From: Chloroflexi bacterium bin125
GTDB taxonomy: Bacteria > Chloroflexota > Dehalococcoidia > Bin125
Assembly: GCA_002239025.1 (NCBI GenBank)
Contig: MPNM01000014.1
Coordinates: 1-64,000 of the forward strand
DNA length: 64,000 nt
Direction of reading: 5' to 3'
Shown: positions 18,178 through 22,096 of the stretch, piece by piece
Layout: each line of letters begins with the position of its first letter
Numbering within the stretch: position 1 is the stretch's first letter
The notes under the pieces: generated by a model
Database searches by the model: none
Told to the model about the DNA's origin: nothing
What the model saw: the letters and a program-made list of their open reading frames with translations, nothing else
Position numbers and translations under genes: made by a program

Positions 18178-19176
18178 ATGAGACTTGGCATCCTGGCCGG
18201 ATTCGACGCCAACTGGCAGGACACATTGGAGAAGGTCAAGATCGCTGAGGACCTTGGCTACGAAATGATCTCCACCGGCGAGGCCTGGGGACACTCCGTG
18301 TTGCCCTGGCTTACAGTGATCGCCGCCAACACCGACAAGATCCAGATCGGCACGGGCATCCTCAACACCTTCTCGCGATCGCCCGGCGCCATTGCCCAGG
18401 AATTCGCGACGCTCGAGACGATCTCCGGCGGCCGCATGGTTTGCGGACTCGGCTCTTCGGGCAACCTGGTGATCGAGGGATTCCACGGCGTCGAGTTCGA
18501 TCGTCCGCTGCGCCGGATTCGCGAATACACCGAAATCATCAAAATGTTGCTCAGCGGTCAGCGGCTGCAATACGAAGGCGAGATCTACACGTTGCAGCGC
18601 GGATTCCGGCTGCTGGGATTTCAGCCCGTACGTGAAGACCTGCCAGTCTGGATCGCGGCGATCACGCCGCGCTCAATCCAGCAGACTGGTGAAATTGCCG
18701 ATGGCATCTACCCAATCCATTGGCCAAAGAAGTCGTTCGAGCCGCTCAAGCGCCAGCTTGCCGGCGCATCGCGCGACGCAGGCCGCCCGGAAGACTCCGT
18801 CACGATTGCACCCTTCACCAACGTCTACGTCACTGGCGAGGGTGACGACGAGTCGGTCTGGCGCAACGCTCGGCAGCCGCTCTTCCACTACACGAACCGG
18901 ATGGGCTCGTTCTACTGGCAGATGCTCTCCCGCTCCGGCTACGAGTCGGAGATCAAGGACTCACGCGCTGCCTGGGCCGACCGCGATTCCGAGGGCGCGC
19001 TGATGGCGTTCTCAGAGAACATGGTCCGCGAGATCCAGGTGATTGGATCGATTGAAGAGGTGCCGGATCTCCTGCAAGCGCGATCCGACGCCGGCGCCGA
19101 ACTGCAGATGGTTCCGCTGCCCCGGGGCACGACGGCTGAGGTCGGGCGTCGGCTCGAGCAGTACCTCGGTGGATAG
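18178..19176 (+). CDS. LLM class (luciferase-like) flavin/F420-dependent oxidoreductase
   Basis: This 332-residue TIM-barrel oxidoreductase is of the luciferase-like superfamily. It has the N-terminal strand MRLGILAGFD, the loop EAWGHSVLPWLTVIAANTDKIQIGTGILN (a characteristic T-x-x-I-x-x-G-T-x-I element), GGRMVCGLGSSGN (flavin phosphate loop), and PVWIAAITPRSIQQTGEIADG near the C-terminal barrel strands. Members use FMN or F420; which one cannot be decided here, although F420-using methylene-tetrahydromethanopterin-reductase-like members are common in Chloroflexota. It is the first gene of the run LLM - Rdx - UGSC selenoprotein - partner, with 21 bases to the next start. A role in delivering oxidised or reduced substrate to the selenoprotein is inferred only. 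Confidence 0.9.
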   Translation: MRLGILAGFDANWQDTLEKVKIAEDLGYEMISTGEAWGHSVLPWLTVIAANTDKIQIGTGILNTFSRSPGAIAQEFATLETISGGRMVCGLGSSGNLVIEGFHGVEFDRPLRRIREYTEIIKMLLSGQRLQYEGEIYTLQRGFRLLGFQPVREDLPVWIAAITPRSIQQTGEIADGIYPIHWPKKSFEPLKRQLAGASRDAGRPEDSVTIAPFTNVYVTGEGDDESVWRNARQPLFHYTNRMGSFYWQMLSRSGYESEIKDSRAAWADRDSEGALMAFSENMVREIQVIGSIEEVPDLLQARSDAGAELQMVPLPRGTTAEVGRRLEQYLGG

Positions 19177-19197
19177 CGTTCGCTGAAGGATTGGCCG

Positions 19198-19449
19198 ATG
19201 TCCGAGCAACAGATTGCAATCGAGGTCGTCTACTGCGCCGACTGCGGCTACTGGCCGCGGACGTCGTGGATGCTGGGCGAGTTGATGACCGACATCCAAC
19301 ACATGGTCTCCGACGTGAAACTGATTCCGGACACCAAAGGCCTCTTCGAGTGGAAGGTCAACGGAGAACTGGTCTTCAGCAAGGCTGCGATGGGCCGGTT
19401 CCCCGACATGGATGAGCTGCGCGAGATAATCTACGCCCATCTGGACTGA
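19198..19449 (+). CDS. Rdx family SelW/SelT/SelH-like thioredoxin-fold protein (Cys form)
   Basis: This 83-residue protein is of the SelW/SelT/SelH (Rdx) family. The redox loop directly follows strand one: IEVVYC13ADC16GYW. In SelW the second redox position is often selenocysteine; here both are cysteine codons. The later strand-turn GLFEWKVNGELVFSKAAMGRFPD matches the family's F-E-(V/I)-x-x-(N/D)-G-x-x-(I/V)-(F/W)-S-K motif, which makes assignment firm. Rdx proteins are small thiol reductases or bind glutathione/protein thiols. Its position 23 bases before a selenocysteine protein suggests that it is the electron donor or resolving partner. That pairing is inference. Confidence 0.9.
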   Translation: MSEQQIAIEVVYCADCGYWPRTSWMLGELMTDIQHMVSDVKLIPDTKGLFEWKVNGELVFSKAAMGRFPDMDELREIIYAHLD

Positions 19450-19472
19450 GCTGTTCGACGAGCAGGAGCAGA

Positions 19473-20033
19473 ATGATGGCTGAAACAATTGAAGTTCTGA
19501 GTCCGCTAGCTCATGTCGCCGTGCATGAGGCGACTCCTGCGCCGCGCCCACTATCTCTCGATGGCCTGCGGCCGGGCATCCTGGAGAACCGCAAAGCCAA
19601 CGCCCGTCTGTTGATGGAGACGATGGTTGAACGTCTTGGCGAACGGTTTGATCTGGGTGAGATGGTGGTCGGCAGCAAACCGGTCGGCGGACCGCCATCA
19701 GACTCGACGATTGACTCATTGCGCAACGGAGCCGACTTCCTCCTGATTGGGAGCTGCGATTGAGGAAGCTGCACGACGTGGAGTGTCCACGCCTCAGTCC
19801 TCTTCGAAGAGATGGGAATTCCCACCGTTACGGTGGGCACATCGGCCTTTACCGACCTGCTGCAACTGGAAGCCGAGCAGCGCGGTCTGCCCGAACTTGA
19901 CCGACTAATCGTGCCGCATCCGCTGGGCGGCCTCAGACCGGAACGCGTACGCGCCCGGATCGATGATGGCGTCCTTGATCGATTGGAAGCGGCGCTGCTC
20001 GGACAGGCGCCCAGTCAGGCGGCTGGATCGTGA
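19473..20033 (+). CDS. UGSC family selenoprotein (in-frame TGA = selenocysteine 97)
   Basis: The gene opens at ATG 19473 (AGGAG five bases upstream) and reads continuously to 20033 if the TGA at 19761-19763 is decoded as selenocysteine. This gives 186 residues with Sec97. Around the TGA the protein reads LLIGSCD-U-GSCTTWSVH, the defining U-G-S-C motif of the UGSC (seleno)protein family, whose non-Sec relatives have Cys there. Upstream and downstream parts share one frame, and the downstream segment (EEMGIPTVTVGTSAFTDLLQ, VPHPLGG) is clearly coding. A SECIS-type hairpin follows the TGA. Sec97 and Cys100 would make a selenenylsulfide redox pair; a further Cys is at 95 (SCDU). The true stop TGA (20031-20033) overlaps the GTG of the next gene. 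The biochemical function of the family is not known to me. Confidence 0.92.
19762..19795 (+). promoter_or_regulatory. Candidate bacterial SECIS element
   Basis: The mRNA just 3' of the Sec codon can fold into a perfect 6-bp stem CGTGGA (19777-19782)/TCCACG (19786-19791) with loop GTG. The loop starts 19 bases after the TGA and its first base is G. Both features meet the published bacterial SECIS rules (16-37 bases, G among the first two loop bases). A lower helix GAGG (19762-19765, including two bases of the TGA) with CCTC (19792-19795) can close beneath an 11-base one-sided bulge. SelB binding is inferred. Confidence 0.75.
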
Positions 20034-21088
20034 CGGCAGCACGCGGCCGAGAGGCTGAACGATTCACGCTGCCGTCCGATCCGTTTGATTTTTCACAGGA
20101 GTGCATCCGTCGCGGCTGGTCGGATGGACTGCCGCTTGTCCCGCCCACGACTGAGCGCGTTGCGGCGACGCTGGAGAGTACAGACCGCGACCCGCTCGAC
20201 GTGCTTGGCGTGCTTTCACCGCGTCAGGGCGAGGCGACGGTCCAGGGCATTGCGATCAATGCGGTGATGGCGGGCTGCAGGCCGCAGCAGTTTCCGATCG
20301 TGCTTGCTGCCGTCGAAGCGATATCCCAACCTCCATTCAATCTCGATGGGATCAATGCGACCACGCATCCCTGTGCTGTGTTCGTCCTGGCATCAGGACC
20401 CGCAGCTCGTTCGGCCGGCATTCATGGCGGATCGGGTTGCTTTGGCCCGACCTTTCCCTCCAACGCGACGATCGGGCGCGCCGTCCGATTGGTGCAACTG
20501 AATATCGCCGGCGCAACGCCGGGTCGCGGCGATCGAGCGACGCAAGGCACGCCAGCCAAGTTCGCGTTCTGCGCCACGGAGCGCGAAGATGCCTCGCCCT
20601 GGCCGCCGTTTCAATCCACCCGAGGGCTGAATGCGGAGGACAGTTGCGTCACGACCTGGGCCTGCGAGGGCCCGCACAACATCCAGGACCACGGCAGCAA
20701 CACGGCAGCCGGGATCTTGCAAACGGTCGCCGGCGCCATGGGACAGGCAGGATCGAACAACATCCTGGGCAAGGGCGAGCCGGTCCTGGCCTTTGGTCCT
20801 GAGCATGCCGAGACCGTCGCCTCGGAAGGCTGGACGCGAGAAGGCGTGCAGGAATACCTCTGGGAGAACGCTCGCTACCCGGCCAGCAAGCTGAGCGAGG
20901 AGTTCCTCGAGTCCGTCAACATCCGCATGGCCGGCGGCGTGTTACCGACCCACAGCTCCGACGAGTGGCTGCCAATCTCGGACAGGCCGGAGGAGATTCA
21001 CATCATCGTCGCCGGCGGTCCCGGCAAGCACTCCTGTTGGATGCCAACGTTTGGCGGCATGACTCGTCCGGTGACAGTGTCGCTGTAG
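20030..21088 (+). CDS. Conserved protein of unknown function, partner of the UGSC selenoprotein
   Basis: This 352-residue soluble protein has no domain I can name with confidence. Its GTG start overlaps the selenoprotein stop by four bases (GTGA), so the two are translationally coupled. The N-terminal half has DFSQECIRRGWSDGLPLVPPT and a segment rich in Gly/Pro (SPRQGEATVQGIAINAVMAGCRP). The middle has HGGSGCFGPTFPSNATIGRA and EDSCVTTWACEGPHNIQDH, with several Cys. The end has IHIIVAGGPGKHSCWMPTFG. The string SCVTTWAC resembles the GSCTTW of the selenoprotein, possibly by chance. There is no signal peptide and no membrane segment. A role as a catalytic partner is inferred from coupling alone. 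Confidence 0.8.
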   Translation: MTAARGREAERFTLPSDPFDFSQECIRRGWSDGLPLVPPTTERVAATLESTDRDPLDVLGVLSPRQGEATVQGIAINAVMAGCRPQQFPIVLAAVEAISQPPFNLDGINATTHPCAVFVLASGPAARSAGIHGGSGCFGPTFPSNATIGRAVRLVQLNIAGATPGRGDRATQGTPAKFAFCATEREDASPWPPFQSTRGLNAEDSCVTTWACEGPHNIQDHGSNTAAGILQTVAGAMGQAGSNNILGKGEPVLAFGPEHAETVASEGWTREGVQEYLWENARYPASKLSEEFLESVNIRMAGGVLPTHSSDEWLPISDRPEEIHIIVAGGPGKHSCWMPTFGGMTRPVTVSL

Positions 21089-21229: not shown

Positions 21230-22096
21230 TCATAATCCAAGCAGCGCACCGGGATTGTCGCGGCACATCGTCTGGATCTCGCCGGCGGTGAATCCCTCTT
21301 CGAGGAATCGGTCGATCCAGAGGGCGAAGCCGATCGGTGGGTCGGGATTTGCCGCTTGACCGAGGTCGGTGGCGAGAATGGTGTGCCCTGGACCGACCGC
21401 TCGGACCTGCTCCATGACTTGCGGTACTGCTGTGTCGGCGTCGCTGTGATAGCTAACGATCGCGCATTGCTCGAGGAATCCACCGAGTTCGGCGATGGAT
21501 CGTTGAGCGTCAATCGGCCACCAGAAACTGGCGTGTGTGATCACGCATTCGATTCCGCGCTCTCTGGCCGAAGTGACGAGCGGGATGCCTTCCTCGACAC
21601 TGACGTGTCCGGATGCCAACACCGCGTTGTGCTCGGCTATCAGGTCGAGGATGTCGTGAATGACGGGCAGCAGTTGTCCGGCATCGTCCAGCAACTGGAT
21701 GGGTTCTTGCGAGCTGAAGTACCGGCCCGGGCGATGAGAGCGCCAATGGACCGCGTCAAAGGTCGGCATCCAGACGACCTTCGTGCCCAGCTTGAGCGCG
21801 ATACGCAACGCCTCGGGATTGAGCCCTCCGACGCCGTGATCAAGGGCGATTCCGCCGAAGATGTCGAGCGCGGGGAAATCGTCCTTCAACGCCCAGGCAA
21901 TCGGTTGTGTGGGATATTCGTGACTTTTGAGAACGATCCCGGACATTCGACGCGTCTGTGCGGCCCTGGCGAGCTGCCGCGCGTCCATGCGACGTTCGGT
22001 GTACGGGTCGGGGCCGGCATGGACGTGGACATCGACCGCGCCTTCAAGCAGGGCCAGCGCGTGGTCCGAAGGCTGGATGGTTGCTGAGTCAGTCAC
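21230..22096 (-). CDS. DUF6282 family metal-dependent hydrolase-like protein
   Basis: This 288-residue protein is of the DUF6282 family, amidohydrolase-like TIM barrels. The metal-binding start is EGAVDVHVHAGPDPYTERR; further histidines lie in LKSHEYPT, DHGVGG, LASGHVSVEEG and VITHASFWWP, and an Asp in LATDLGQ. The open frame extends well upstream through low-quality sequence. The GTG at 22094-22096 overlaps the upstream nucleoside hydrolase stop by four bases (GTGA) and places the domain right at the N-terminus, so it is chosen. The coupling suggests joint action with the nucleoside hydrolase homologue, perhaps on a ribosyl- or ring-containing compound. Substrate unknown. Confidence 0.85.
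   Translation of the reverse strand: MTDSATIQPSDHALALLEGAVDVHVHAGPDPYTERRMDARQLARAAQTRRMSGIVLKSHEYPTQPIAWALKDDFPALDIFGGIALDHGVGGLNPEALRIALKLGTKVVWMPTFDAVHWRSHRPGRYFSSQEPIQLLDDAGQLLPVIHDILDLIAEHNAVLASGHVSVEEGIPLVTSARERGIECVITHASFWWPIDAQRSIAELGGFLEQCAIVSYHSDADTAVPQVMEQVRAVGPGHTILATDLGQAANPDPPIGFALWIDRFLEEGFTAGEIQTMCRDNPGALLGL

Follow-up and report, generated by a model that had tools for sequence, protein, structure and literature searches.

What a selenoprotein of the UGSC family does, and with which of the genes packed around it, is the question raised by a four-gene run in the window, by which we mean the whole stretch of 64,000 nucleotides analysed here (Chloroflexi bacterium bin125, contig MPNM01000014.1, positions 1 to 64,000). 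In 2008 Zhang and Gladyshev described UGSC-containing proteins as thioredoxin (Trx)-like, gave no function for them and noted a fusion to a domain called 'Unknown_1'; in ocean metagenomes the family is among the most abundant of all selenoprotein families (PMC2398784). A 2026 review still leaves it without a function (PMC13188914). The four open reading frames (ORFs) all lie on the + strand of the window in the order LLM, Rdx, UGSC and PART, the last being our name for an unnamed partner family. The features are as follows.

18178..19176, + strand: LLM-class flavin/F420 oxidoreductase (PF00296, 221.7 bits, E 2e-65, above the Pfam gathering score)
19198..19449, + strand: Rdx/SelW-like protein, CxxC motif CADC (PF10262, 65.9 bits against a cut-off of 22.6, E 3.7e-18)
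19473..20033, + strand: UGSC selenoprotein with selenocysteine (Sec) 97, encoded by the TGA at 19761-19763, and Cys100 (PF24696, 137.7 bits, E 5.7e-40)
19777..19791, + strand: predicted fold, a hairpin resembling a selenocysteine insertion sequence directly 3' of the Sec TGA (stem 19777-19782/19786-19791)
20030..21088, + strand: PART, 352 amino acids, GTG start, matching no Pfam or NCBIfam family

A preliminary description of this DNA had read the run as one operon of four in which electrons might pass from a reduced cofactor to a selenenylsulfide. The order, strand and spacing on which it rested (gaps of 21 bases between LLM and Rdx and 23 bases between Rdx and UGSC, then a 4-base overlap of UGSC and PART) were confirmed by the ORFs and the family matches. 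The fourth gene, then called unknown, indeed belongs to no Pfam or NCBIfam family, and it can now be recognized as the near-constant partner of UGSC. The invariant core of the locus is UGSC plus PART; the set of four does not form a universal unit. The window Rdx also exceeded the TIGR02174 cut-off (59.1 bits against 34.2) and is thus a member of the Rdx/SelW family (PF10262). UGSC exceeded the PF24696 gathering score of 25 bits, which makes it a PF24696 member of the UGSC-containing family of Zhang and Gladyshev (2008), and at 106.6 bits it fell below the equivalog cut-off of 125 bits of the corresponding NCBIfam model, NF041046.

The pairing of UGSC and PART was examined in a scan in which each species was represented by a single genome and which gave at least 558 confirmed PART relatives; the loci analysed were the best 80 of these, and all counts of PART loci given here refer to that set. 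The 80 loci span Chloroflexota, Rokubacteria, Proteobacteria, Actinobacteria including Mycobacterium, Bacillus, Natrialba, Nitrospinota, Acidobacteria and Poribacteria. A UGSC-like gene was held by 76 of them, and in 73 it lay within 500 bp of PART on the same strand (59 in the order UGSC-PART and 14 in the order PART-UGSC); it was more than 500 bp away in L133, L134 and L146, and no UGSC-like gene was found in L077 (a 4.2-kb contig), L143, L147 and L154. Among 251 Chloroflexota genomes 26 have UGSC, always together with PART; of the 27 with PART only one (G087) lacks UGSC. The source genome of the window (3.68 Mb in 66 contigs, 96.7% complete) carries four UGSC paralogues, and its six PART copies lie within the same four loci. 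In five loci (L215, L216, L217, L219 and L225) the two are joined in one frame of 546-571 codons when TGA is read as Sec, and in plasmids of Sporomusa termitida (L197, 6317-8041) and Vibrio europaeus (L198, 6359-8044) the fusion is a single ordinary ORF adjoined by aconitase X and DUF126 genes. In a plasmid collection (24 records) PART was named 'hypothetical protein' wherever it had been annotated. Sec-type pairs were also seen in metagenome-assembled genome records titled Bordetella parapertussis (L085, L098, L108 and L114), a species name that is doubtful.

The UGSC of the window is a genuine selenoprotein, because the in-frame TGA is accompanied by the hairpin and by the genes for tRNA-Sec, SelA and SelB. 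The only in-frame TGA is codon 97, in the context C-D-U-G-S-C, and the protein thus has the U-G-S-C motif together with a Sec-insertion signal. Each of the four paralogues of the source genome has exactly one internal TGA, and the genome encodes a tRNA-Sec with anticodon TCA as well as SelA (515.7 bits) and SelB (328.3 bits), all three over their cut-offs. Across 80 distinct Sec homologues the 8-pair stem was canonical in 90% of cells, compared with 57% in 10 Cys homologues, and control alignments in which one side was slid by +1, -1 or +3 bases gave 16, 39 and 50%. The median fold z was -2.0 in Sec homologues and -0.04 in Cys homologues, and at stem pairs 21-27 and 18-30 G-C is exchanged for C-G among homologues. 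The protein segment at the same place is a conserved SWSVHD peptide, the W of which is present in 63 of 80 Sec forms but only three of 10 Cys forms; part of the conservation of this peptide may therefore reflect an RNA constraint. The second Cys of the motif is present in 79/80 Sec forms and 8/10 Cys forms. In eight of the 10 Cys-type proteins (types seen, for example, in L130, L137, L138, L139, L144 and L103) a third Cys is gained seven residues past the first, at a position that is Ser in most Sec forms.

Rdx was next to be placed in relation to this pair. It is found in 121 of 294 genomes of the class, and 58 distinct Rdx stretches outside the family of the window (60 fetched, two of them repeats) were hand-chosen from the list of Rdx matches. 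A tandem Rdx-UGSC-PART on one strand was present in 10 of the 58 (eight genomes of family f10 and two of family f75), although this is not an unbiased rate as six of the last 20 stretches were picked for Rdx scores like those in the two tandem cases found first. In seven more of the 58 a Sec-form Rdx is divergent from UGSC. In the seven tandem loci compared, the closest paralogue in the source genome was the window copy for both proteins (53-64% for UGSC and 60-70% for PART), so the tandem in these two families is the three-gene unit of the window, and in the four of these loci with gene calls the flanks differ from those of the window. Rdx, UGSC and PART are therefore a genuine conserved unit, and it is this part of the proposed operon that recurs amid unrelated flanks. 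Marine SelW-like selenoproteins carry CxxU (PMC2398784); the window Rdx differs in having Cys at that position and in being tied to UGSC-PART.

Other thiol proteins are found beside or within the pair elsewhere. Plasmids carry PART-UGSC-trxB (Roseovarius), trxB-trxA-PART-UGSC (Arthrobacter) and trxB-TctC-SDR-PART-UGSC-like (Variovorax SRS16) arrays, and a pyridine nucleotide-disulphide oxidoreductase gene lies past UGSC or the fusion in L217, L221 and L225. PART itself has a thioredoxin-like N-terminal domain with CxxC in the source-genome paralogue on contig C12, in its genus orthologues L069, L071 and L074, and in L223 and L224; Pfam scores for this domain are weak (Thioredoxin_2, E 0.0076-0.084), but that of C12 has a match in L157, where the gene directly preceding a GrdB gene encodes a protein of AhpC/TSA type (28% identity, pairwise E 2e-14). 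Since Rdx stands in tandem with the pair in two more families and trxB, trxA or a thioredoxin-like domain accompanies it elsewhere, the best reading is that a thiol donor feeds the selenenylsulfide, the gene association being what was observed and the electron flow what we infer from it. This arrangement parallels the electron supply of glycine reductase, which runs from NADPH through thioredoxin reductase and thioredoxin to GrdA/GrdB (PMC3091704). In the paralogue on contig C30 an AhpD-like (PF02627) CxxU protein precedes UGSC-PART, as it does in three of the four genus loci of that type. This AhpD-like selenoprotein (L018, 7827-8312, motif CSVU) lies directly before UGSC, and the ordinary gene call starts after the TGA and so hides its N-terminal part. 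A Sec-type Rdx with LLM genes nearby on the same strand was also seen at L305 (genome G285, contig C38, 2967-5598), in a stretch with neither UGSC nor PART.

What kind of protein UGSC might be was approached through its model and by profile comparison. The AlphaFold2 model (mean pLDDT 93.9) is a doubly wound alpha/beta, Rossmann-like structure with the order E34-38, H, E65-68, H, E89-95, H, E118-123, H, E144-147, in which Sec97 sits between the third strand (89-95) and helix 98-113. The thioredoxin fold is beta-alpha-beta-alpha-beta-beta-alpha with CxxC. The predicted order of strands and helices in UGSC does not seem to resemble this, which would speak against the Trx-like suggestion of 2008 (PMC2398784). 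The model aligned best with CheY-like proteins (Z 9-10); Foldseek and VIA-align gave only generic CheY/flavodoxin-like folds, and the lack of a thioredoxin-fold chain among the rows shown excludes nothing. A sequence search of the PDB with the UGSC and PART profiles returned nothing below E 0.2. A more specific likeness came from GrdB genes of other Chloroflexota, which when read through the TGA continue ...DAVILTAT-U-GTCTRCGATMAKEIERAGIPTALIST..., the PF07355 model, as matched here, stopping just before the Sec residue. In hhalign, UGSC 75-176 aligned with the C-terminal Sec domain of GrdB, Sec on Sec, at 93.7-95.4% probability (score 53-56), whereas the controls (20 column shuffles, one reversal and 12 decoy families) gave scores of at most 20.9 and probabilities of at most 3.6%, and the Sec-less part of GrdB scored 21.6. 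UGSC thus has a UxxC Sec domain in the same profile register as GrdB and PrdB, the latter being described as a GrdB homologue in PMC13188914. The resemblance extends to the position of UxxC after a beta-strand, a K-E-I-E..GIP-type helix-strand, an HP.G segment, an electron supply of thioredoxin type and the need for a second protein. It differs in that UGSC is a stand-alone domain of 150-190 amino acids or a fusion with PART, that by profile comparison its partner is not GrdE, and that it occurs also in haloarchaea, actinobacteria and proteobacteria. Several Chloroflexota have multiple full GrdB-type genes as well (L155, L157 and L229; seven matches in G183 and three in G079), and the source genome has five short PF07355 matches (contigs C19, C23, C26 and C51).

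From these results we regard it as on balance probable, by somewhat more than an even chance, that UGSC-PART is a two-subunit Sec-dependent reductase akin to the B-type subunits of glycine and D-proline reductases, served by thioredoxin-fold donors, with Rdx as the donor here and LLM as a lineage-specific addition. PART would bind or activate a small organic substrate; by analogy with the homologous enzymes the selenolate of Sec97 would attack it and release a leaving group, and Cys100 would resolve the intermediate to give a Sec97-Cys100 selenenylsulfide. A thioredoxin-fold donor would then reduce this bond, the donor being Rdx (CADC) in this lineage and thioredoxin/thioredoxin reductase or the thioredoxin-like domain fused to PART elsewhere. 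Candidates for a pocket in PART are the residues most conserved across 83 aligned rows, namely R150 (83), N145 (82), T112 (82), C83 (80) and C181 (78), with E184 (81), E186 (79), K177 (78) and H259 (79).

Several results weigh against this reading and should be set beside it. When UxxC was masked in both profiles the match to GrdB fell to 41.8% (score 30.6, same register), and the motif therefore carries much of it; a search of 79 UGSC proteins with PF07355 gave no match up to E 10; and the third Cys of the UxxCxxC pattern is W in the window UGSC, although it is Cys in the paralogues on C12 and C29. With PF07355 unmatched, that Cys absent from the window copy and PART not being GrdE, the relation of UGSC to the GrdB Sec domain is probably one of distant homology and not of membership of GrdB/PrdB. 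PART was tried as a GrdE homologue and rejected (hhalign 0.2%, against a GrdE profile of only three sequences), and its fold matches were weak (chorismate mutase, fumarate hydratase and cyclic amide hydrolases, best Z 6.1), so that no pyruvoyl chemistry can be claimed for it. TrxB-like genes were present in only nine of the 80 PART loci and thioredoxin in one. In the Sporomusa and Vibrio fusions MGTS replaces UGSC, leaving neither Sec nor Cys, and some members therefore cannot use selenenylsulfide chemistry.

These Sec-less fusions, with their aconitase X and DUF126 neighbours, also speak for the different view in which UGSC-PART acts on a metal or metalloid ligand, by binding or transforming it, or in which it is a lyase without redox function that gained Sec or Cys later; a faint fold similarity between PART and both fumarate hydratase and cyclic amide hydrolases (Z 5-6) could be added here. 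We consider this quite unlikely given the retention of the second Cys in nearly all Sec and most Cys forms and the repeated association with thiol donors. A selenol peroxidase or antioxidant unit, regenerated by thioredoxin-type proteins and not acting on organic C-X bonds, is favoured by the AhpD-like Sec protein before UGSC in the C30 paralogue, and a peroxidase activity of GrdB has been reported, to judge from a title in the reference list of PMC3091704. This too is unlikely, if a little less so: a near-constant partner of 350 residues is not needed for a peroxidase, the loci are rich in catabolic and transport genes (TctC receptors, a CoA-transferase in L220, CaiB in Roseovarius), and the number of UGSC copies in some genomes speaks for a range of substrates.

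The chain of the preliminary description, in which LLM would take electrons from F420H2 or FMNH2 and pass them through Rdx to the UGSC selenenylsulfide, with all four proteins in one pathway, draws on the gene order within the genus. All 13 orthologous genus loci fetched have LLM-Rdx-UGSC-PART on one strand (LLM being cut by a contig end in L058), and the four genes are also present in a sister genus (genome G383, locus L265), again with LLM upstream of Rdx. However, genus synteny alone proves little, because the whole neighbourhood, including RidA, glyoxalase, MoaD, BNR, nucleoside hydrolase and a second LLM gene (LLM2), is syntenic. Within these loci LLM and Rdx are adjacent in 13/13 and UGSC and PART in 12/13 (665 bp lie between them in L061), whereas Rdx and UGSC lie no more than about 30 bp from each other in only four and 1.0-4.6 kb apart in nine (L053, L054, L056-L060, L063 and L064), as they are, by 1.7 kb, in L265. 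The genus locus thus consists of two tight pairs, LLM-Rdx and UGSC-PART, with an insertion-prone joint. In most cases the insert is a same-strand gene of about 530 residues that varies and probably encodes a secreted protein; that of L054 has transposase-like and DNA methyltransferase-like genes.

Outside the genus and its sister LLM is not fixed. The 10 tandem loci from families f10 and f75 include no case of LLM upstream of Rdx on the same strand, and LLM and Rdx occurred together in only one of the 80 PART loci (L075, from the same family as the window). LLM genes do adjoin UGSC or PART in L142, L145, L216 and L228, a finding that stands without comparison with the background rate of LLM genes. 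CofC and CofD are encoded near the C12 copy, so the source genome can probably make F420, and its use by the window LLM is possible, but that protein fell short of all F420-dependent LLM subfamilies of NCBIfam (best TIGR04024, 210.7 bits against a cut-off of 345.4). No LLM enzyme is known to reduce disulfides. Taken together these observations make the LLM-led chain very improbable. Of the electron path first suggested, the thiol protein as donor is retained and LLM as fixed member or first carrier is dropped; likewise, of the expected co-occurrence of four families, UGSC-PART is near-constant and Rdx recurrent, but LLM is fixed only in the window genus and in a single sister genus. It is thus an addition specific to this lineage and not part of the conserved core, and in the reductase reading it would probably act in this lineage on the same compound, before or after the UGSC-PART step.

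The occurrence of the locus within the genus and its surroundings may be summarized briefly. UGSC is present in all 15 genus genomes and the window locus in 14, the exception (G011) having neither a UGSC of the window type nor any Rdx. Two further places in the source genome, near contig ends, have an extra LLM C-terminus followed by Rdx (L020, contig C56, 6300-6650; L021, contig C49, 7459-8081); the LLM portion is partial or disrupted, and next comes a member of a variable gene family, 'AWC.DG..EGIPGS'. Just past PART in the window, on the opposite strand, is a DUF6282 gene (21230-22096). DUF6282 was rejected as a member of the unit as no homologue of it was found in any of the 13 genus loci, although it follows PART in a Natrinema plasmid (L194). 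A promoter and terminator scan of the window gave two and two sites against 0.7 and 1.8 expected, none of them before LLM, and no island was seen in the G+C profile of the window.

As to substrate, neighbouring genes within 400 bp on the same strand were collected with a greedy ORF caller (49 upstream and 40 downstream). Receptors of the tripartite tricarboxylate (TctC) type made up 10 of the upstream and eight of the downstream genes, and other neighbours outside the class include CoA-transferases, CaiB, aconitase X and thiamine enzymes; such neighbours point to small-molecule catabolism. Up to 12 UGSC matches were found in one genome (G151), which suggests different substrates for different copies. 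Dehalogenation, raised in the preliminary description, is unproven and a possibility only. The one precedent seen is an operon of Synergistota with GrdB-like proteins proposed for C-F cleavage of fluoroacetate (PMC10838667), which is a different gene set with no mention of UGSC or PART in the accessible text.

In the non-subscription literature on UGSC, in the parts accessible, no partner gene, operon or relation to GrdB is stated; this holds for PMC2398784, PMC13188914, PMC9312934, PMC5029168, PMC9402790, PMC7539508 and PMC5330540, and none was found that pairs a selenoprotein with SAR202. Compared with the description of 2008, as far as its accessible text goes, the partner, the near-constant pairing and the donors are added here, with Unknown_1 as a possible equivalent of PART. 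More tentatively, at rather less than an even chance, UGSC-PART may be an unrecognized second branch of the glycine/proline reductases, with a stand-alone GrdB-type Sec domain, a new substrate subunit that is not GrdE, donors of the Trx, TrxR and SelW types and paralogues for different substrates, spread over many phyla and haloarchaea and including hosts that are not Stickland fermenters. An old and abundant orphan selenoprotein family thus gains a partner, donors and a probable relative. With the partner, the fusions, the donor set (Rdx, TrxA, TrxB and the Trx-like domain) and the relation to GrdB/PrdB in hand, UGSC becomes a directly testable enzyme system, and as Cys versions of the pair occur in culturable hosts it can be tested there. 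If it is PART that sets the substrate, the many paralogues per genome would offer a reservoir of new bond-cleaving reductases dependent on Sec or Cys.

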